Source: Paracoccus sp. MKU1
GTDB lineage: Bacteria > Pseudomonadota > Alphaproteobacteria > Rhodobacterales > Rhodobacteraceae
Assembly: GCF_001447385.1 (NCBI RefSeq)
Contig: NZ_LLWQ01000142.1
Location: forward strand, 1-64,000
Reading direction: 5' to 3'
Length of the DNA: 64,000 bases
The translations under genes and the position numbers were made by a program. The notes under the pieces are model-generated. The model saw only the letters and a program-made list of their open reading frames with translations, had not been told where the DNA came from and did no database searches. Of this stretch, positions 25,179-33,007 are shown one piece after another (positions within the stretch are counted from its first letter, which is position 1; each line of letters begins with the position of its first letter).

Positions 25179-26118
25179 TCTCGCGCGCCAGCCCCAGCGC
25201 CTTCATCCGCGCCAGCATCCGCTCGGCGGTGTCGCGGCTGATGCCGGCGCTGTCCTCCAGCATCGCCGCGTTCAACAGCGGATGCGCGGCCAGCGCCCGG
25301 ATCACCCGGCCCGGATTGTCGCCCTTGACCCCCGCCATGGCCGCCAGCGCCCGGGCCTGCCAGTCGGCGACCCGCGCCAATTCGTGCCGCGCGTCCATGA
25401 TCGCCGCCGTGACCGCGGCAAGATGCCGCGCCATGCGCTCGGCCGGGGGGCCGGCATCGACCCAGACCGCGCGGCCGTGCCGGCCCAGGGGCACGAAGCG
25501 CAACGCCTCGCAGCCCTCGGCCATGTCGCGCGCCGTCCAGGTGGCCGGCTCTGCCAGCACCTCGGGCGCCGACAGCCCGCAAAGCCGCCACAACACCCGC
25601 AGCGCCGCCGCCCGCACCAGCGGCGCCAGCCCGGCGACCTGCCCGGCCAGGTCCCGGAACTCGTCCACCGCCGCGTCGAAATCCCGCCCGGTCGGCCGCG
25701 TCGCCAGCAGCTCGTCCAGCCCCGAGACCGCGGCCCGGTGCAGCCCCAGAAAGCCGCGCAGGTCGCGCGGATCGCCCTGCCCCTCCAGCCGCCGGATGCC
25801 CCAGCGCGCCAGCCGCATCGCCTCCAGGTCGGCGCCGGCCCGCGCTTCCATCAGGTCGCGGCCGATCTCCTCGCGCCGCAGAGGCGTGCCCTGCGCCCAC
25901 AGCATCGCCTCGACCTCGATCAGCGCCAGCCGCCGGTTGGCGCCGGCCTGGGCCTCGGGCTCCAGCGCCGCGACCGCGCCGTCCAGCCGCCCCAGCGCAA
26001 AGGCCGCGCGGGCCAGTTCCGGCGCCAGCCCGGCCTGGGCGGAAAACCAGTCCGAGGCATCAAAAAACTGGTGCGCAGCCGATTTTCCGTGATAGTCTGT
26101 GTCCGAAGCGGATGGCAT
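25135..26118 (-). CDS. RHE_PE00001-type protein (DUF1612/HTH) beside the partition genes
   Basis: 327 residues of a family common on alphaproteobacterial plasmids. The middle matches the DUF1612-type region (LIEVEAMLWAQGTPLRREEIGRDL; RRLEGQGDPRDLRGFLGLH) and the C-terminal 60 residues look like a winged helix-turn-helix (LNAAMLEDSAGISRDTAERMLARMKALGL, then GRRFRLWML). No function is established. Its constant occurrence near replicon maintenance genes suggests a DNA-binding accessory; that is inference. It is read toward the araC-type gene and overlaps it. Confidence 0.7.
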   Translation of the reverse strand: MPSASDTDYHGKSAAHQFFDASDWFSAQAGLAPELARAAFALGRLDGAVAALEPEAQAGANRRLALIEVEAMLWAQGTPLRREEIGRDLMEARAGADLEAMRLARWGIRRLEGQGDPRDLRGFLGLHRAAVSGLDELLATRPTGRDFDAAVDEFRDLAGQVAGLAPLVRAAALRVLWRLCGLSAPEVLAEPATWTARDMAEGCEALRFVPLGRHGRAVWVDAGPPAERMARHLAAVTAAIMDARHELARVADWQARALAAMAGVKGDNPGRVIRALAAHPLLNAAMLEDSAGISRDTAERMLARMKALGLAREITGGRRFRLWMLAG

Positions 26119-26254: not shown

Positions 26255-26276
26255 GACCTTCCCCGCGGGGAAGGTC
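26255..26276. other. parS-like palindrome 1
   Basis: Perfect 22-bp palindrome with core CTTCCCCGCGGGGAAG, overlapping the parB stop codon. The longest of four copies. Confidence 0.65.
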
Positions 26277-27378
26277 AATCGAGGCTCTCCAGCATCGCCC
26301 GCACCGCCGCCTCCAGCTTGCGCCGGTCCACCGCCGAGAAGTCGCGCGGCAGGCGGATTTCCAGCCGCCCGTTCGAGGCCGTGCACTTGGCGCTGCCCTG
26401 CGGCCGCTGGATCTGGAAGCTGATGCGCGCCTTGCCGGCGGGCACGGCCGGCGTCGCGCTGCGCGGCGCGGCGGCGGCGGATTCCGTGTCGCCCCCCTGC
26501 CCCGCATAGCGGCGCAGCACGTCCAGCTCGTCCTTGACCGAGCGCGAGTCCCAGTCCTTCAGCTCGGCCCGGATCGCCGCCGCCGCGCCCGGCACCTCGT
26601 CCAGCCGTTGCGCCAGCGCCAGCCCCAGCGCACGCGGGATCTCGGGCGCGTAAAGCAGCACCTCGCCCAGGGCCTCGATCAGCCGGATGAAGCTGCGGAT
26701 ATAGCTGCGCTTCTGGTAGCCGGCCGATTTGAACAGGATCGCCACCGCCTTCTCGGGGTCGTTCTCCTCGGTCGCCGGGTCCATGGCGTAATGCAGCGCC
26801 AGCTGCGCCATCTCGGCAAAGGAGATGTCCTTGCGCACCATGTTCTCATCGACCATGCGCCGGTAAAGCCGCTCCAGCTCGTCGCCGCGCGCCGCGATGC
26901 CGGCCGGGATGCGGCCCCATTTCTCGGCATCGCCCGTCTCCTCCAGCAGCTGGCGATAGGCCGAAAGCCGGCGCCAGCCCTGGATCAGCTCATAGCGGCC
27001 GTCCTCGGCCGGCTCGACCCGGATCGGGTTCGACAGGCCGATGTCGCGGATCGACTCGACCAGTTCGGTCAGTTCGTAATCCGGCCCCGGCGCGCGGTCG
27101 CGGATCAGCTTCTGCGCGTCGATGGCGTCCAGCGGGATCATGTCGGTGATCAGCCCGGCGCGCTTCAGCCGCACATGTTCCTGGGCCAGCGCGTCGTTCT
27201 CGGCGCGGATCTGCGCCTCCAGCCGGGCGCGGTCGCGGGTGGATTCGGCGGTCTCGGTGATGGCGGTCGCCATCGGGCCGCGGCGATGCTCCTTTTCCTC
27301 CTTCCCCGCGGGGAAGGTTTCCGGCGCGGCCTCGGCATCCGGCATCTCGATCTCGAACATGCGGCGCTTGCGGCTCAT
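26275..27378 (-). CDS. parB: Partition protein ParB
   Basis: 367 residues. The ParB/Srx domain has IPLDAIDAQKLIRDR, the LVESIRDIGLSNPIRV box and YELIQGWRRLSAYRQL, then the ENMVRKDISFAEMAQLA block and a helix-turn-helix (about 200-245). The C-terminal part (about 310-367, ISFQIQRPQGSAKCTASNGRLEI) resembles dimerisation tails of plasmid ParBs. It should bind the palindromes described here and stimulate ParA. Its start overlaps the ParA stop by 4 bp. One palindrome copy lies in its own N-terminal linker, coding FPAGK. Confidence 0.9.
   Translation of the reverse strand: MSRKRRMFEIEMPDAEAAPETFPAGKEEKEHRRGPMATAITETAESTRDRARLEAQIRAENDALAQEHVRLKRAGLITDMIPLDAIDAQKLIRDRAPGPDYELTELVESIRDIGLSNPIRVEPAEDGRYELIQGWRRLSAYRQLLEETGDAEKWGRIPAGIAARGDELERLYRRMVDENMVRKDISFAEMAQLALHYAMDPATEENDPEKAVAILFKSAGYQKRSYIRSFIRLIEALGEVLLYAPEIPRALGLALAQRLDEVPGAAAAIRAELKDWDSRSVKDELDVLRRYAGQGGDTESAAAAPRSATPAVPAGKARISFQIQRPQGSAKCTASNGRLEIRLPRDFSAVDRRKLEAAVRAMLESLD
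27300..27317. other. parS-like palindrome 2 (inside parB)
   Basis: Perfect 18-bp palindrome around CTTCCCCGCGGGGAAG within the parB coding sequence, read as Phe-Pro-Ala-Gly-Lys. Confidence 0.6.
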
Positions 27379-28679
27379 GCCTCGCCCTCCAGCTTGCCCC
27401 AGGCCGCGACGACATGGGACTTGAACTCCTCATAGGCCTGGTCGAAGGTCGCCCGCGCCCGGCGCCAGGTGCCGCGCGTCATCTCGCGATAGTCGATCTC
27501 GTAGATCGAGCTGAGGAACCGGCCCGATTGCTCGACCGCGCGGGTCAGCTCGATCGGGTGCTGGGCCATGTGCTGGCCGAAGACCTGCTGGAAGGCGCCA
27601 TACATCGCCTGGTGCAGCTCGTTCGAGGGCTCGTAGCGCGTCATCAGGAAGCGGATGTCGGCAAAGGCCTTGGGCAGCTTGATCTTCCCCGTGGGGAAGT
27701 TTTCGAAGCCATGCGACAGATCCTCCAGCGCCTCGGACAGCTGGCCGATGAAGCTGGTGGTCGAGTCGTATTCCCAATAGCCGGGACCCGAGGGGATATA
27801 GAGCATGTCGGCGGCAAAGACCGCGTTCATCGACTGGTAGCCGATGGCCGGCGGGCAATCGAACAGGATCAGGTCATAGGCATCGTCCGCCAGGCTGTCG
27901 AGAAAGCGCGACACGGCGCCGAAGAAGGTCCATTCCGGGTTCAGATGCCGGTACTGGGCGCTGGCGAACTCGACGAAGGCGGCATTGGCGCAGCTCGGGA
28001 TGATGTCGATGGTCGGCCAGGCGGTCGGCTTGATGAAGTCCGCCGGGCGCAGCATGCCGAGCCCCATGTCGCGGATCGAGGCCGGCAGTTTGCGCTGGGG
28101 CAGGGCGGTGCCGCTCTCGGCGCCGCGGGCGGCGGCGTTCATGCGGTCGGTCTCGCGCTCCAGGTCGCGGGCCATGATGCCCCAGACGGTATGGTCCTCG
28201 CCGACATCGGTCAGGCCCATGGAATGGCTCAGCGTGGCCTGCGGGTCGAAATCCACCAGCAGCACCCGATAGCCGTCCAGCGCCGCGGCATGGGCGAAAT
28301 GCAGCGCCACAGTGGACTTGCCGGCGCCGCCCTTGAAATTGGCGATGGCGGCGCGGAAGGCGCGCTTGCCCTCGGGCCGCCAGGGCATCAGCGTCTTGCG
28401 GTTGATGCGGATGCGGCGGCGCAGCTCGTTGATCTCGTCGAGCGAGAACCAGCGCTGGCGGCCGTCCTCCTCGACTTCCCCGAGGGGAAGGTTCGGCTCG
28501 GCCGCGAGCTTGCCGCGGAAGGTGGACTGGTTGATGCGAAAGATCAGCTCGGACACCTCCCAGCTGGAGAAGCGGCGCAGCGTCTTCTCGTTGGCCGGGC
28601 TGAAGGTCTGGCGCCGGATCCAGCCCTGCATCTTCAGCGATTGCGCCTGTAGCTTGGCGAGGTCTTCATGCGTGTACAT
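27375..28679 (-). CDS. parA: Partition ATPase ParA
   Basis: 434 residues. An N-terminal region of about 105 residues with a MerR-like HTH (RRFSSWEVSELIFRINQSTFRG) precedes the deviant Walker ATPase: FKGGAGKST at 115-123, VDFDPQAT, and ILFDCPPAIGYQSMNAV. Plasmid-type ParA proteins with this N-terminal DNA-binding domain usually repress their own operon. The ATG at 28679 has only a weak ribosome site. It is transcribed away from the initiator gene across the origin region, the arrangement known for DnaA-like replicons of Rhodobacterales. Two palindrome copies lie in its coding sequence. Confidence 0.92.
   Translation of the reverse strand: MYTHEDLAKLQAQSLKMQGWIRRQTFSPANEKTLRRFSSWEVSELIFRINQSTFRGKLAAEPNLPLGEVEEDGRQRWFSLDEINELRRRIRINRKTLMPWRPEGKRAFRAAIANFKGGAGKSTVALHFAHAAALDGYRVLLVDFDPQATLSHSMGLTDVGEDHTVWGIMARDLERETDRMNAAARGAESGTALPQRKLPASIRDMGLGMLRPADFIKPTAWPTIDIIPSCANAAFVEFASAQYRHLNPEWTFFGAVSRFLDSLADDAYDLILFDCPPAIGYQSMNAVFAADMLYIPSGPGYWEYDSTTSFIGQLSEALEDLSHGFENFPTGKIKLPKAFADIRFLMTRYEPSNELHQAMYGAFQQVFGQHMAQHPIELTRAVEQSGRFLSSIYEIDYREMTRGTWRRARATFDQAYEEFKSHVVAAWGKLEGEA
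27684..27699. other. parS-like palindrome 3 (inside parA)
   Basis: CTTCCCCGTGGGGAAG, with both 7-base arms intact and a non-palindromic centre; read in ParA as Phe-Pro-Thr-Gly-Lys. Confidence 0.55.
28475..28490. other. parS-like palindrome 4 (inside parA)
   Basis: CTTCCCCGAGGGGAAG with intact arms. Here it is read in a different codon phase (Leu-Pro-Leu-Gly-Glu), so the DNA rather than the peptide is what is conserved. Confidence 0.55.
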
Positions 28680-29162
28680 AGGATGCCTGTATTTTTAGGA
28701 CGCAGATTTTCTTCCGTTTCGCTTTTACGCCGGATTTGCACTTTTGGCAAAAGGCGTTTTAATGGAACGGCCAGGATATGGGAATTCAGGCATTTCCCGG
28801 CGCCTCCCGGCGAATCGGCCAGCGAATCCCCGGCCGCCGGGACCGGGACGCAGATGCCGGAAATGGGGGACGCGAGATCGCGTTGCGCGCCGGAATAGGG
28901 GACAAAACGGCGCGAATGGGTGACGCCATGAATGTCCCCCTATACCATTTGATACCGATTTTCTTTGATGATTTGGTCCGGAAATCCGGGCCGGCGGGGA
29001 ATCGCTTGACAGAATCGGAATTCAGGACGCAAATACGAAACAGATGGCGAAAAGCGTTTCGAACGGCATGAGACCGACGCCGCCATCCGGGTCTTTGCCC
29101 CCAAGGGCAGGGCTCAGCGGGCAGATGAGGGCAGCCGGACAAGTCCGGGCGCAGGAGCAGAC
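28680..29162. other. Probable replication origin between parA and the initiator gene
   Basis: A 483-bp gene-free interval, locally AT-richer than its surroundings (28681-28765 and 28940-28975). It contains iteron-like repeats, three copies of GGACGCA(G/A)AT (28698-28707, 28846-28855, 29025-29034), the palindrome CTTTTGGCAAAAG (28741-28753), CGCGAGATCGCG (28871-28882) and four GANTC sites (28812, 28824, 28999, 29012). A TTGACA at 29006-29011 may begin the initiator promoter. Position and repeat content fit an oriV with par and rep promoters. Confidence 0.65.
28857..28946. repeat. Iteron-like repeats in the origin region
   Basis: Degenerate direct repeats with core (A/G)AT(A/G)GGGGGAC: CCGGAAATGGGGGACGC (28857-28873), CCGGAATAGGGGACAAA (28890-28906), GCGAATGGGTGACGCC (28912-28927), and an inverted copy ATGTCCCCCTATACC (28932-28946). 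Spacing is irregular (33, 22 and about 20 bases). Likely binding sites for the replication initiator. Confidence 0.5.
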
Positions 29163-29837
29163 ATGCAGGTGATCCGTGCCGTCGGCCGAGAGGCCGCGGC
29201 CAAGAAATACGATTTGCTCTCGGCCATGATGGCGCATGGGCTGGCCGGCGACAAGCATCGCCAGCGCCTGGTGCTGCGGCTGATGGCGCTGATCACCACG
29301 CGCTACAACTGGCAACGCGACGAACTGACCATCGGCCAGCGCGAGATCGCCCGGCTGTGGTGCGTCGATGAGCGCACCGTCAAGCGCGAGATGGCCAAGC
29401 TGCGCGCCCTCGGCTGGATCGAGATCAAGCAGCAGGGCGCGCGGGGGCGGGTGTCGGTGCTGGGGCTGAACCTGGAGCGTATCCTGTTGGATACAAAGGC
29501 GGAATGGCCGAATATCGGCCCGGATTTCGTCGAGCGCGTCGGCGGCAGGCGGGCCGAGCCGGCCAGCAATGTCGTGCCGCTGCACCGGCCCGAGCCGATG
29601 CCGGCGGAGGGGCTGTGGGCCGAGGCGCGGGCCCGGCTGGCCGAGGAGGACCCGGCGCTGTTCGACGCCTGGTTCGCCGGGCTGATCGAGGCCGAGCGGA
29701 GCGAGTCCTGCCTGACCCTGTTCGCGCCCAGCCGCTTTCATGCCAATTACGTCCAGACCCATCTGATCGAGCGGCTGCGCATCGCCGTGCAACGCTGCGA
29801 CGGGCGCGTCGGCAAGCTGCGGATCCTTGGTCCCTGA
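29163..29837 (+). CDS. DnaA-like plasmid replication initiator
   Basis: 224 residues. The N-terminal half is a winged helix-turn-helix replication-protein domain (about 15-105; LTIGQREIARLWCVDERTVKREMAKL). Residues 151-210 resemble the DnaA N-terminal domain (LWAEARARLAEEDPALFDAWF, then LTLFAPSRFHANYVQTHLIERL), the hallmark of the Rhodobacterales DnaA-like replicases. There is no AAA+ domain, so it is not chromosomal DnaA. GCAGGAGCAGAC precedes the ATG. It should bind the adjacent repeats and start replication of this replicon. Confidence 0.88.
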   Translation: MQVIRAVGREAAAKKYDLLSAMMAHGLAGDKHRQRLVLRLMALITTRYNWQRDELTIGQREIARLWCVDERTVKREMAKLRALGWIEIKQQGARGRVSVLGLNLERILLDTKAEWPNIGPDFVERVGGRRAEPASNVVPLHRPEPMPAEGLWAEARARLAEEDPALFDAWFAGLIEAERSESCLTLFAPSRFHANYVQTHLIERLRIAVQRCDGRVGKLRILGP

Positions 29838-30297: not shown

Positions 30298-30324
30298 TCC
30301 CACATGAGGCTCAGGGAGGTATCC

Positions 30325-31287
30325 ATGCCCCAGCAATCGCGCCGCGCCGCCGAGATCTATCACCAGCCGCTGATGGACCTGCTGTTCCAGGCCCAGACCG
30401 TCCATCGCGCGCATTTCGACCCGAACGCCGTGCAATGTTCCAAGCTCCTGTCGATCAAGACCGGCGGCTGCCCCGAGGATTGCGCCTATTGCTCGCAATC
30501 GGCGCGCAACGGCTCGGACCTGTCGGCCTCGAAACTGATGGAGGTGCAGCGCGTGCTGGCCGAGGCCAGGCGCGCCAAGGAGGCGGGGGCGACGCGCTAT
30601 TGCATGGGCGCCGCCTGGCGCTCGCCCAAGGAGCGCGACATGCCGGCGGTGCTGGCGATGATCCGCGGCGTCAAGGCGATGGGGATGGAGACCTGCATGA
30701 CGCTGGGCATGCTGGACGCGGACCAGGCGCTGCGGCTGAAGGACGCGGGGCTGGACTATTACAACCACAATATCGACACCTCGGAACGCTATTATTCCGA
30801 GATCATCACCACGCGGACCTTCCAGGACCGGATCGAGACGCTGGAGCGGGTGCAGGCGGCGGGCATCAATGTCTGCGCCGGCGGCATCGTCGGCATGGGC
30901 GAGACGGCCGAGGATCGCATCTCGATGCTGGAGACGCTGGCCGGGCTGGAGGTGCCGCCGCAATCGGTGCCGATCAACATGCTGATGCCGATGGCGGGCA
31001 CGCCCTTGGCCGATGTGCCGAAGCTGGACCCGATCGAGATGGTGCGCACCATCGCCACGGCGCGCATCCTGATGCCGGCCTCCTATGTGCGGCTGTCGGC
31101 CGGGCGGTCCGAGATGAGCGACGAGATGCAGGCCATGTGCTTCTTTGCCGGGGCCAATTCGATCTTCGTCGGCGACACGCTGCTGACCGCCGGCAACCCG
31201 GACGAGGACAAGGACGCGCTGCTGTTCGCCAGGCTGGGGCTGCGGGCCGAGGTGCTGGAGGCGTCGCAGGAGGGCTGCGCGGCATGA
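30325..31287 (+). CDS. bioB: Biotin synthase
   Basis: 320 residues from the ATG at 30325, which follows AGGGAGGTATCC; an upstream in-frame ATG at 30304 lacks such a site. A radical-SAM enzyme that inserts sulfur into dethiobiotin. The SAM-cluster cysteines are Cys49, Cys53 and Cys56 (CPEDCAYC), followed by [28 protein letters not shown] and the late block RLSAGRSEM that contributes the Arg ligand of the second cluster. First gene of the operon; its stop overlaps the bioF start. Confidence 0.97.
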
Positions 31288-32399
31288 GCTTTTCCCGGCA
31301 CGGGGCGGCGCTGGAGGCGCTGGCGCGGCGCGGACGGCTGCGCCGGGTGGCGCCGGCGGCGGGGGCGGATTTCGCCTCGAACGACTATCTGGGGCTGGCG
31401 GGGTCGGAACTGCTGGCCCGGGCGGCGCGGGATGCGCTGGCGCGCGGCGTGCCGGTGGGCGCCGGGGGGTCGCGGCTGTTGCGCGGCAACCATCCCGAGC
31501 ATCAGGCGCTGGAGGCCGAGGCGGCGGCGTTCTTCGGCGTCGAGGCCGCCTTGTATATGGGCGGCGGGTTCCAGGCCAACCAGGCGATCTTTTCGGCGCT
31601 GCCGATGCAGGGCGATCTGGTGGTTCATGATGCGCTGGTCCATGCCAGCGCGCATGAGGGGATGCGGCTGGGCCGTGCCGAATGCCGCGGCTTTGCCCAT
31701 AACGATGCCGGCGACGCGGCGCGGGTGATCGCCGAGTGGCGCGATGCGGGCGGGCGCGGCCGGGTCTGGATCGCGGTCGAGAGCGTCTATTCCATGGAGG
31801 GCGATCTGGCGCCCTTGCCCGCGCTGGCGGCGCTGGCGGCGCGCGAGGACGCGGTGCTGGTGGTGGACGAGGCGCATGCGACCGGGGTTTTCGGCCCGCA
31901 GGGCAGGGGGCTGGCGCATGGGCTGGGCTGTCCCGTGGTGAGCCTGCATACCGGGGGCAAGGGGCTGGGCGGCTCGGGCGCGCTGGTCTGCGCCGACCGG
32001 GTGCTGGTCGAGACGCTGGTGAACAAGGCGCGGCCGTTCATCTATGCCACGGCGCCGCCGCCCCTGTCGGCGGCGGTGCTGCGCGGCGCCTTGCGGGCGC
32101 TGGAGGATCAGCCGGCGCTGGTCGAGGGCGCGCGGGCGCGCATGGCGCAGGCGGCGGAGGCCGCGCGGCGTTGCGGCATCGCGGCGCAGAGCCAGATCGT
32201 GCCGGTGATTCTGGGCGAGGATCATCGGGCGCTGGCCATGGCGGCGGATTTGCAGGCGCAGGGCTTCGACATCCGTGCCATCCGGCCGCCGACGGTGCCG
32301 AAGGGGACGGCGCGGCTGCGGGTCTCGGTCACCGGCAATGTCGGGGCGGGCGAGATCGCGGCGCTGTTCGCCGCGCTGGAGGCAGCATGGCTGCGGTGA
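31284..32399 (+). CDS. bioF: 8-amino-7-oxononanoate synthase
   Basis: 371 residues, PLP-dependent condensation of pimeloyl-ACP with alanine. Family motifs: [42 protein letters not shown], and PLP lysine Lys226 in HTGGKGLGG. The ATG overlaps the bioB stop (ATGA). Strongly G-rich sense strand, unlike genes left of the origin. Confidence 0.95.
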
Positions 32400-33007
32400 T
32401 CGTGGCGGGCACCGATACCGGCATCGGCAAGACGGTGTTCAGCGCCGGGCTGACCCGCGCGCTGGGGGCGACCTATTGGAAGCCGGTGCAGGCGGGGCTG
32501 GAGGAGGAGACCGACAGCGAAATCGTGGCGCGGCTTTCGGGGCGGCCGGTGCTCGCCGAGGCTTACCGGCTGCGGCTGCCGGCCTCGCCGCATCTGGCGG
32601 CCGAGCGCGAGGGGGTGGAGATCGATCCGGCGCGGCTGGTGCTGCCAAGCGTCGATGGCCCGCTGGTGGTCGAAGGGGCGGGCGGGCTGATGGTGCCGCT
32701 GACCCGGCGGCTGCTTTATTTGCAGGTGATCGCGGGCTGGGGGGCGCCGGTGGTGCTGTGCTGCCGCACCGCGCTTGGCACCATCAACCATTCGCTGCTG
32801 TCGCTGGTGGCGCTGCGCGCCGCTGGTTGCCGGGTGGCGGGCGTGGCCTTCATCGGCGAGGAGAGGGCGGACAGCCGCCGGGTGATCTGCGAGGTCGGCG
32901 CGGTGCGCGACCTGGGCCGGCTGCCGGTGCTGGAGCGGGTGACGGCCGGGGCGCTGGAGGCGGCATTCGCCGGCATCGAGGTCGATGCGATCCGAGAGGT
33001 GCTGTGA
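32387..33007 (+). CDS. bioD: Dethiobiotin synthetase
   Basis: 206 residues. P-loop GTDTGIGKT (8-16), substrate-lysine block WKPVQAG, and VVEGAGGLMVPL. ATP-dependent carboxylation of 7,8-diaminononanoate. The start overlaps the end of bioF by 13 bp, so translation is coupled. Confidence 0.95.
   Translation: MAAVIVAGTDTGIGKTVFSAGLTRALGATYWKPVQAGLEEETDSEIVARLSGRPVLAEAYRLRLPASPHLAAEREGVEIDPARLVLPSVDGPLVVEGAGGLMVPLTRRLLYLQVIAGWGAPVVLCCRTALGTINHSLLSLVALRAAGCRVAGVAFIGEERADSRRVICEVGAVRDLGRLPVLERVTAGALEAAFAGIEVDAIREVL

Follow-up and report, generated by a model that had tools for sequence, protein, structure and literature searches.

Results

The gap between parA and the initiator gene

The window analyzed here is the whole stretch of 64,000 bases, which corresponds to bases 1-64000 of a 77,556-base contig (C142) in a 5.39-Mb draft genome of 242 contigs. 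Within it, a gap of 483 bp (28680..29162) separates parA from a replication initiator gene and constitutes the candidate oriV and divergent control region of this study. On the minus strand lie parA (27375..28679), which encodes a partition ATPase of 434 aa (AAA_31, E 2e-24), and parB (26275..27378; 367 aa; ParB_N, E 3e-6). ParA also matches the partition_RepA model TIGR03453 with an E value of 3e-60, which is under the cut-off of that model. On the plus strand, the initiator gene (29163..29837) encodes a protein of 224 aa with a predicted winged helix followed by a C-terminal DnaA domain I. The initial annotation had described 28680-29162 as the gap between a divergent parA and an initiator, and this was borne out. 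The arrangement recurs among the relatives, where a divergent parA accompanies the initiator at 134 of 144 loci; in the remaining ten, the record ends short of parA.

Initiator matches with an E value of 0.001 or better were found in 81 of 125 Paracoccus genomes, our own included, although a handful of these are weak and cover the helix-turn-helix part only. The closest named matches (95-98% identity) lie on replicons of 1.46-2.24 Mb from Paracoccus versutus, P. pantotrophus, P. ferrooxidans, and P. denitrificans. The window is therefore a piece of a Paracoccus DnaA-like chromid ("chromosome II"), a replicon type that was known before and is described in print (PMC3925955, PMC11578231). The window initiator is 53.3% identical over 99% of its length to the protein of pGal_A255 from Phaeobacter gallaeciensis, which has been typed as DnaA-like-I (PMC4148982). 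By sequence comparison we assign the replicon to this same type, as the initiator homology, the C-terminal DnaA domain I module, and the divergent parA-parB pair are all found. It does not fall among repABC replicons: the initiator showed no RepC-type match and is transcribed divergently from parA.

Pfam searches placed DnaA_N (PF11638) at initiator residues 151-209 (E 6e-6, above the cut-off) and a Crp-type helix-turn-helix at residues 34-92 (under the cut-off), and found no AAA+ family in the protein. The C-terminal part also matched DnaA domain I of the PDB with an E value of 2e-4. In the predicted model (mean pLDDT 85.9, pTM 0.53, 39 sequences), a linker of uncertain placement joins the two domains of the initiator. 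The C-terminal domain superimposes on DnaA domain I from 4tps (Z 13.1, rmsd 1.7, 77 residues) and on 2wp0 (Z 10.8, rmsd 2.1, 76 residues). The N-terminal domain is modeled as a winged helix with many fold matches of similar rank. We dropped its assignment to a plasmid Rep family since 4pt7, 4pql, and 5kbj (Z 7.7-8.5, rmsd 5.0-5.5) appeared only among many winged-helix matches. Domain I of DnaA contacts the replicative helicase, and on this basis we propose a helicase role for the initiator C-terminus.

A candidate iteron array beside an AT-rich stretch

Upon analysis of the gap, we found four repeats arranged as three direct copies and one inverted copy of GGKGAC. Iteron 1 (28861..28872, plus strand; core GGGGAC at 28866-28871) is followed after 32 nt by iteron 2 (28893..28904, plus strand; core GGGGAC at 28898-28903) and after a further 21 nt by iteron 3 (28914..28925, plus strand; core GGTGAC at 28919-28924), while iteron 4 (28932..28943) is inverted on the minus strand (GTCCCC at 28934-28939), giving start-to-start spacings of 32, 21, and 14 nt. 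Four iterons with an ATRGGGGGAC core had been proposed initially. The four copies exist, but that core fits, with one mismatch, at the inverted copy only; the core conserved among relatives is GGKGAC.

We scored 142 gaps for the array, namely 69 of class A from Paracoccus, 54 of class A from other genera, and 13 + 6 of class B, the Paracoccus class B initiators being 37-43% identical to that of the window. Loci L070 and L084 were left out of these counts. The array is present in 139 of the 142 gaps, our own included, and the three gaps without it come from records truncated by a contig end. The spacing is 32 nt in 121, 21 nt in 115, and 14 nt in 130 of the 139 arrays, so that the direct copies stand approximately three and two helical turns apart. 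Because the motif was derived from the same gaps that were scored, the weight of this result rests on the controls rather than on the raw count: 135 loci reached a score of 40 or more, a level attained by none of 142 reverse complements and by none of 426 mononucleotide shuffles. The array was also found in 80 of 80 named records, a set that partly overlaps the first. Classes A and B co-occur in 11 genomes, as counted by eye, and their cores differ in the third letter, which is G in 311 of 360 class A copies versus T in 50 of 57 class B copies. These class-specific cores fit separate initiator-iteron pairs.

Directly after the inverted iteron lies an AT-rich stretch (28944..28976), a candidate unwinding element that holds the conserved ATACCATT and TTTTCT. 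In the 20-nt bin 80 nt past iteron 1, the mean AT content is 0.66-0.70 in Paracoccus class A, other class A, and Paracoccus class B; in class A, a lower peak (0.57-0.62) precedes the array by about 160 nt. The layout, as read from sequence, is that of an iteron-type origin, with helically phased repeats beside an AT-rich element and the initiator gene. Within the initiator gene itself, 0 of 72 four-fold sites reach 95% conservation, which speaks against an origin inside the gene.

GC skew around the partition-replication module

In the window, the cumulative GC skew reaches its minimum at 27485, and in G059, a 98%-identical relative, at 25995; both positions are displaced from the gap by about 1.2 kb toward parB. 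Averaged over 83 named loci (L148-L227, L278-L280), the skew stands at -0.02 between -2000 and -1500 relative to the initiator start and has a positive sign in the bins that follow. This supports an origin in the partition-replication module without singling out the gap. We gave up GC skew as proof of the gap, since these finer profiles put the turn about 1.2 kb away at the parA-parB end; local skew within a kilobase would also reflect gene strand and codon content. The opposite switch of G059 occurs near 1.0 Mb on a replicon of 1.53 Mb, leaving unequal arms of about 0.97 and 0.55 Mb.

Taken together, the fixed-spacing array in 139 of 142 gaps, the adjacent AT-rich peak, the lack of conserved elements in the initiator gene, and the DnaA domain I of the protein lend good support to the initial reading of the gap as oriV. 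The origin of this DnaA-like-I chromid very probably lies within 28680-29162, a judgment that we lowered slightly because the skew turns 1.2 kb from the gap.

Conserved blocks and candidate promoters in the gap

For footprinting within Paracoccus, we aligned 62 complete gaps, our own included, whose initiators are 57-100% identical to that of the window. These remained from 84 loci after 13 class B loci were set apart and after seven without parA, where the record ends, and L070 and L084, without an aligned initiator start, were left out. Outside the genus, 60 of 104 match rows were fetched, picked by score and spread and hence a non-random sample. Start codons there were set by rule, so the parA-side edge of some gaps is approximate; counts anchored on the iterons or the -35 element are unaffected.

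Across the 62 gaps, most of the sequence is weakly conserved and the blocks TGCCTGTATT, AGGACGCAGATT, CTTTTACGCCGGATTTGC, TTTTGGCAAAAG, GCGAATCG, the iterons with ATACCATT and TTTTCT, CGCTTGACAGAATCGG, TCAGGACGCAAAT, and GATGGCGAAAAGCGTTT stand out. A -35 element of the initiator gene, TTGACA (29006..29011, plus strand), occupies conserved columns, and TTGAC[AT] or a permitted near form was found downstream of the iteron array in 139 of 139 loci. The conserved repeat AGGACGCAAAT (29024..29034, plus strand) lies over the expected -10 region of this promoter, and the conserved GATGGCGAAAAGCGTTT (29043..29059, plus strand) lies in the expected 5′ leader, where it is a candidate operator. On the minus strand, the likely parA promoter TTGCCA-N17-TAAAAG (28722..28750), also in conserved columns, falls within the palindrome CTTTTGGCAAAAG and the block CTTTTACGCC. 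The repeat AGGACGCAGATT (28697..28708, plus strand), a conserved block near the expected parA transcript start, is a candidate for an operator shared by the two promoters.

Three GGACGCA(G/A)AT repeats had been noted initially, and copies are indeed present at 28698, 28846, and 29025 (0.11 expected from gap shuffles), but only the first and last fall in conserved blocks; the middle copy, GGACGCAGAT at 28846, is without conservation in the Paracoccus gaps. The AGGACGCARAT repeats of the two promoter regions, like the block GGCGAAAAGCGTTT, are candidate operators that ParA, ParB, or the initiator may bind. Two palindromes had likewise been proposed. That at 28741-28753 (CTTTTGGCAAAAG) is real and conserved, but we identified no convincing second one. 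The class B gaps (L071-L083) share CGCGTTTTA, AATAACGCGAAA, and AAGAACGCGA near parA, possibly as partition-site or operator repeats.

We also considered two familiar regulators of replication. No DnaA boxes were found in the gap, and TTATNCACA with one mismatch occurs in 18 of 132 gaps versus 26 of 132 for the reversed control; a DnaA-dependent oriC was dropped, as the boxes show no excess over the control. CtrA sites (TTAA-N7-TTAA, one mismatch) occur in 9 of 132 gaps versus 46 of 132 for a control word, and a CtrA-controlled origin was dropped for the same reason.

Two of the four GANTC sites are conserved

The gap contains all four of the GANTC sites counted in the initial annotation (28812, 28824, 28999, and 29012), but only those at 28812 and 29012 are conserved. 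The distal site GCGAATCG (28812..28816) is kept in 57 of 62 Paracoccus gaps and the promoter site TTGACAGAATCGG (29012..29016) in 51 of 62, and both are candidate CcrM sites of the GcrA type. The site at 28824..28828 is non-conserved (8 of 62), and that at 28999..29003, just before the -35 element, is weakly conserved (16 of 62). In the window, the distal site sits 50 nt upstream of the iteron array; the promoter site touches the -35 element of the initiator gene (TTGACAGAATC) about 70 bp from the array.

By number, four GANTC sites are unremarkable for a sequence of this composition (mean 2.4 in dinucleotide shuffles of the gap, P 0.21), and we dropped the count by itself as evidence. The whole 64-kb window holds 52 GANTC versus 234 in whole-window shuffles, which indicates avoidance, and the gap is its densest place; at 0.81 GANTC per kb, a Poisson estimate puts the probability of four within 483 bp at about 7 in 10,000. 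Over 800 kb of the G059 replicon, however, 76 of 15,640 overlapping 483-bp windows hold at least four, so density alone does not make the gap unique.

With the gaps L049, L066, and L091, which are cut by a record end, left out of the GANTC counts, 134 of 139 loci have a GANTC within -20 to +60 of the -35 element and five are without one. It stands directly after TTGACA in 103 of the 139, just before it in 7, 30-60 nt further on in 23 (including all 19 class B loci), and overlapping it in one. As background, 8 of 61 TTGACA words in 800 kb of G059 have a GANTC in the same range and 1 of 61 has it directly after, this one being the initiator gene itself. Among 120 class A loci, 113 carry the promoter GANTC, as compared with 7-55 for control pentamers, and the 55 belongs to TCNGA, which overlaps the conserved block itself. 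Similarly, 115 of 120 have the distal GANTC, taken as one at most 120 nt upstream of iteron 1, versus 10-51 of 120 for seven control pentamers of equal make-up. Class B is mostly without the distal site (present in 7 of 19), and every one of the 139 loci carries at least one of the two.

The pattern extends well beyond the genus. The promoter GANTC was found in all examined loci for 34 of 35 non-Paracoccus genera and the distal GANTC for 32 of 34 class A genera. In the named records, whose genomes partly repeat those of the main set, the promoter GANTC occurs in 74 of 80 (within -10 to +60 in this set) and the distal GANTC in 79 of 80. At its center, the distal site has A in 74 cases and T in 40, and parsimony places 12 such changes on the initiator tree. 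Because GAATC is the reverse complement of GATTC, each change is also an orientation flip of one site. We read the A/T changes at the distal site and the shifting position of the promoter site as likely signs of selection on a methylation site.

Compensation between GANTC sites before and after the -35 element in Paracoccus was considered and dropped: three loci without the after-35 site have one before it, but so do loci with both. In L205 and L208, the promoter GANTC is lost (TTGACAGGATC), yet six GANTC lie in the distal region upstream of the initiator.

Correspondence with CcrM and GcrA

In Caulobacter, promoters that carry a methylated YGAKTCK or YGAKTCG are the proposed targets of activation by GcrA (PMC7987155). 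Read on either strand, YGAKTCK fits 102 of 103 after-35 sites and 132 of 149 distal sites; in the after-35 sites, one letter of the word comes from TTGACA, so that part of their fit is automatic. For comparison, the word matches 12 of 48 window sites, 120 of 367 sites of flanking coding DNA, and 4 of 60 among the remaining GANTC of the gaps. Against a uniform rule, it fits just 1 of 22 sites before the -35 element and 14 of 25 sites at +30 to +60. For the window and most class A loci, the sequence presents a GANTC in the promoter within a YGAKTCK word, although CGATTC(T/G) could be the word of another regulator. The CcrM link that had been drawn for all four GANTC sites is supported, through conservation and the YGAKTCK fit, for the two conserved sites and is unsupported for the other two.

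The host genome encodes the corresponding proteins. Its CcrM gene (L147:682-1815, 377 aa) has CcrM as its best NCBIfam match with an E value of 1e-191, under the cut-off (636 vs 830 bits), and its GcrA gene matches with an E value of 3e-46, over the cut-off. A CcrM-type domain was found in nine of nine further genomes, including the five without a promoter GANTC; loss of the promoter GANTC through loss of CcrM was dropped as an explanation since those five retain the gene. Published work on related systems is in line with these assignments. On ctrAP1 hemimethylated on the plus strand, GcrA covers 12 nt comprising the -35 element and the adjacent GANTC (PMC3667746), the CcrM of P. aminophilus is an essential enzyme with GANTC as its methylation site (PMC3925955), and one study detected GANTC methylation in every Sulfitobacter genome that it covered, from strains that carry DnaA-like replicons (PMC9025767).

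The pattern TTGACAGANTC occurs at five other places in the host genome (C8:17591, C8:101366, C189:1797, C214:3183, and C225:67641) versus none for the reversed pattern. The ORFs behind the other occurrences, named by eye from their translations, are tail sheath-like, peptidyl-tRNA hydrolase-like, substrate-binding, GntR-like, and others. We dropped a shared regulon, since the five places in the host and four examined in relatives precede unrelated ORFs and not a cell-cycle set.

Discussion

A proposed methylation switch at the probable chromid origin

The elements of the gap, their spacing and conservation, the predicted protein folds, and the host CcrM and GcrA genes are at hand in the sequence, and from them we infer origin activity, initiator binding, methylation of both GANTC sites, GcrA binding, and the sign of a switch that could operate as follows. 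Late in the cycle, CcrM would fully methylate both GANTC sites, and GcrA-dependent transcription would then supply the initiator. The winged helix of the initiator would bind the four iterons, the adjoining AT-rich stretch would melt, and the C-terminal DnaA domain I would recruit the replicative helicase. Since no more than about 50 and 70 bp separate the two GANTC sites from the array, replication should leave both hemimethylated simultaneously, until late CcrM synthesis. Hemimethylation may then change GcrA-dependent transcription of the initiator such that a second start is blocked, the direction of this effect being a guess. We hold with moderate confidence that CcrM and GcrA control initiator transcription. 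The combined reading, in which the gap is both the chromid origin and the initiator/parAB control region and initiation is tied to the cell cycle via two CcrM/GcrA sites, seems to us somewhat better than an even prospect. More tentatively, and short of even, we suggest a self-limiting methylation switch for DnaA-like secondary chromosomes across the order Rhodobacterales, with a GcrA/CcrM site on the promoter of the replicon's own initiator, under about 100 bp from the iterons in the window, to which class A would add the second site on the other side of the array.

The explanation that competes best, though we consider it unlikely, keeps the origin in the gap and assigns the conserved GAATC words to the site of a methylation-blind regulator, whether ParA, ParB, the initiator, or another repressor, that controls the initiator gene. 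Initiators and ParA commonly autoregulate, the promoter site is embedded in a longer conserved stretch of TTGACAGAATCGG and then AGGACGCAAAT, and the central base of the promoter GANTC is A in nearly all cases, all as such an operator would have it. The distal site, however, is conserved as little beyond CGAWTCG. The promoter GANTC also shifts among lineages, lying after the -35 element, before it, or about 40 nt on, and a fixed operator is not expected to move yet keep GANTC. In addition, the fit to the GcrA word is far above background at the two main positions.

It is quite improbable, in our estimate, that GANTC acts chiefly on the origin itself, like GATC in the E. coli oriC, through a sequestering factor or altered initiator binding, with promoter control secondary. 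The distal site would suit this role, as no promoter-like block surrounds it, it lies just upstream of iteron 1 in the window, and it is slightly more constant than the promoter site (115 vs 113 of 120 class A loci; 79 vs 74 of 80 named records). Yet the iteron block itself is without GANTC in 131 of 139 loci and the distal site is mostly missing from class B; we know of no SeqA-like protein in alphaproteobacteria. Least probable of all is that the gap is a divergent promoter region only and that the origin lies elsewhere in the module, inside the initiator gene, as in repABC replicons, which carry oriV within repC (PMC9040568), or at the parA-parB junction, near which the skew of the window, G059, and the 83-locus mean turns, for the helically phased iterons occur in both classes and the AT-rich stretch in all three groups profiled, synonymous positions of the initiator gene show no strong conservation, and skew at this scale presumably also follows gene strand and codon content.

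Comparison with known systems

The DnaA-like-I replicons share a homologous initiator and divergent parA-parB with the window; pGal_A255, P. denitrificans HAMBI_2443, and Ruegeria pomeroyi have the same iterons and both GANTC sites, and we found nothing essential to differ. The window promoter also resembles Caulobacter crescentus ctrAP1, where a GANTC lies beside the -35 element and GcrA is bound, and both hosts have CcrM and GcrA genes. The activity of the Caulobacter ctrA and dnaA promoters changes with methylation state (PMC3667746, PMC3973325). In contrast to ctrAP1 and dnaA, the gene in the window is a chromid initiator whose promoter GANTC stands about 70 bp from its own iterons, and it would therefore be hemimethylated by the very event that it controls.

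The repABC replicons pTiR10 and pAMI4 are, like the window, alphaproteobacterial replicons of the plasmid type with CcrM sites in control regions (PMC6090056, PMC9040568). They differ in that the window initiator is not RepC, its partition genes are divergent rather than co-transcribed, its iterons lie outside the initiator gene, and its GANTC sites occupy two fixed places conserved across many genera. Another secondary chromosome with iterons and a link between methylation and the cell cycle is chromosome 2 of Vibrio cholerae, whose origin combines iterons and Dam methylation, with the methylated GATC within initiator-binding sites. In the window, unlike in V. cholerae, the GANTC lies outside the iterons, and its proposed action is on initiator transcription.

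Clusters of GANTC in repABC replicons are in print (PMC6090056, PMC9040568), as is an enrichment of GANTC close to ori and ter and on conjugative plasmids in Dinoroseobacter. In the portions of the literature covered by our search, a body that does not include the founding paper (Petersen 2011), we found no description of a GANTC or iteron layout in the DnaA-like-I gap. The replicon type and its chromid role are known, and the layout of an iteron array with two conserved GANTC sites is apparently new.

If the proposed switch is correct, firing of the origin would itself hemimethylate the initiator promoter and lock it until the late CcrM pulse, which would lead to once-per-cycle replication and would mirror the methylation control of Caulobacter dnaA on an unrelated initiator. 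Such a switch would help to set the late start of large replicons. Marker-frequency analysis of a panel that includes P. denitrificans indicates that the chromosome starts before the large replicons, with similar termination in most strains (PMC13342612). A 2018 review could point to no mechanism described in alphaproteobacteria and notes only GANTC-rich repABC regions (PMC6090056). With two fixed sites in a 483-bp gap of laboratory species, the question is testable by two small mutations. The DnaA-like replicon type resisted removal from P. aminophilus (PMC11578231), and the element map offers a concrete origin candidate for this replicon type.

Flanking genes and replicon composition

Across Paracoccus (L013-L069), the part of parA that was fetched is 87-96% identical, versus 57-79% for the initiator, which evolves much faster. 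Adjoining the candidate origin at 30304-33004 are genes resembling those of biotin synthesis, a BATS/radical SAM gene of the bioB type followed by a bioF-like aminotransferase and a bioD-like ATPase. Further along the G059 replicon, which is mostly near 68% GC, a 20-kb stretch (G059:C1:120001-140000, L249) has a GC content of 48.8% and is probably an acquired element.
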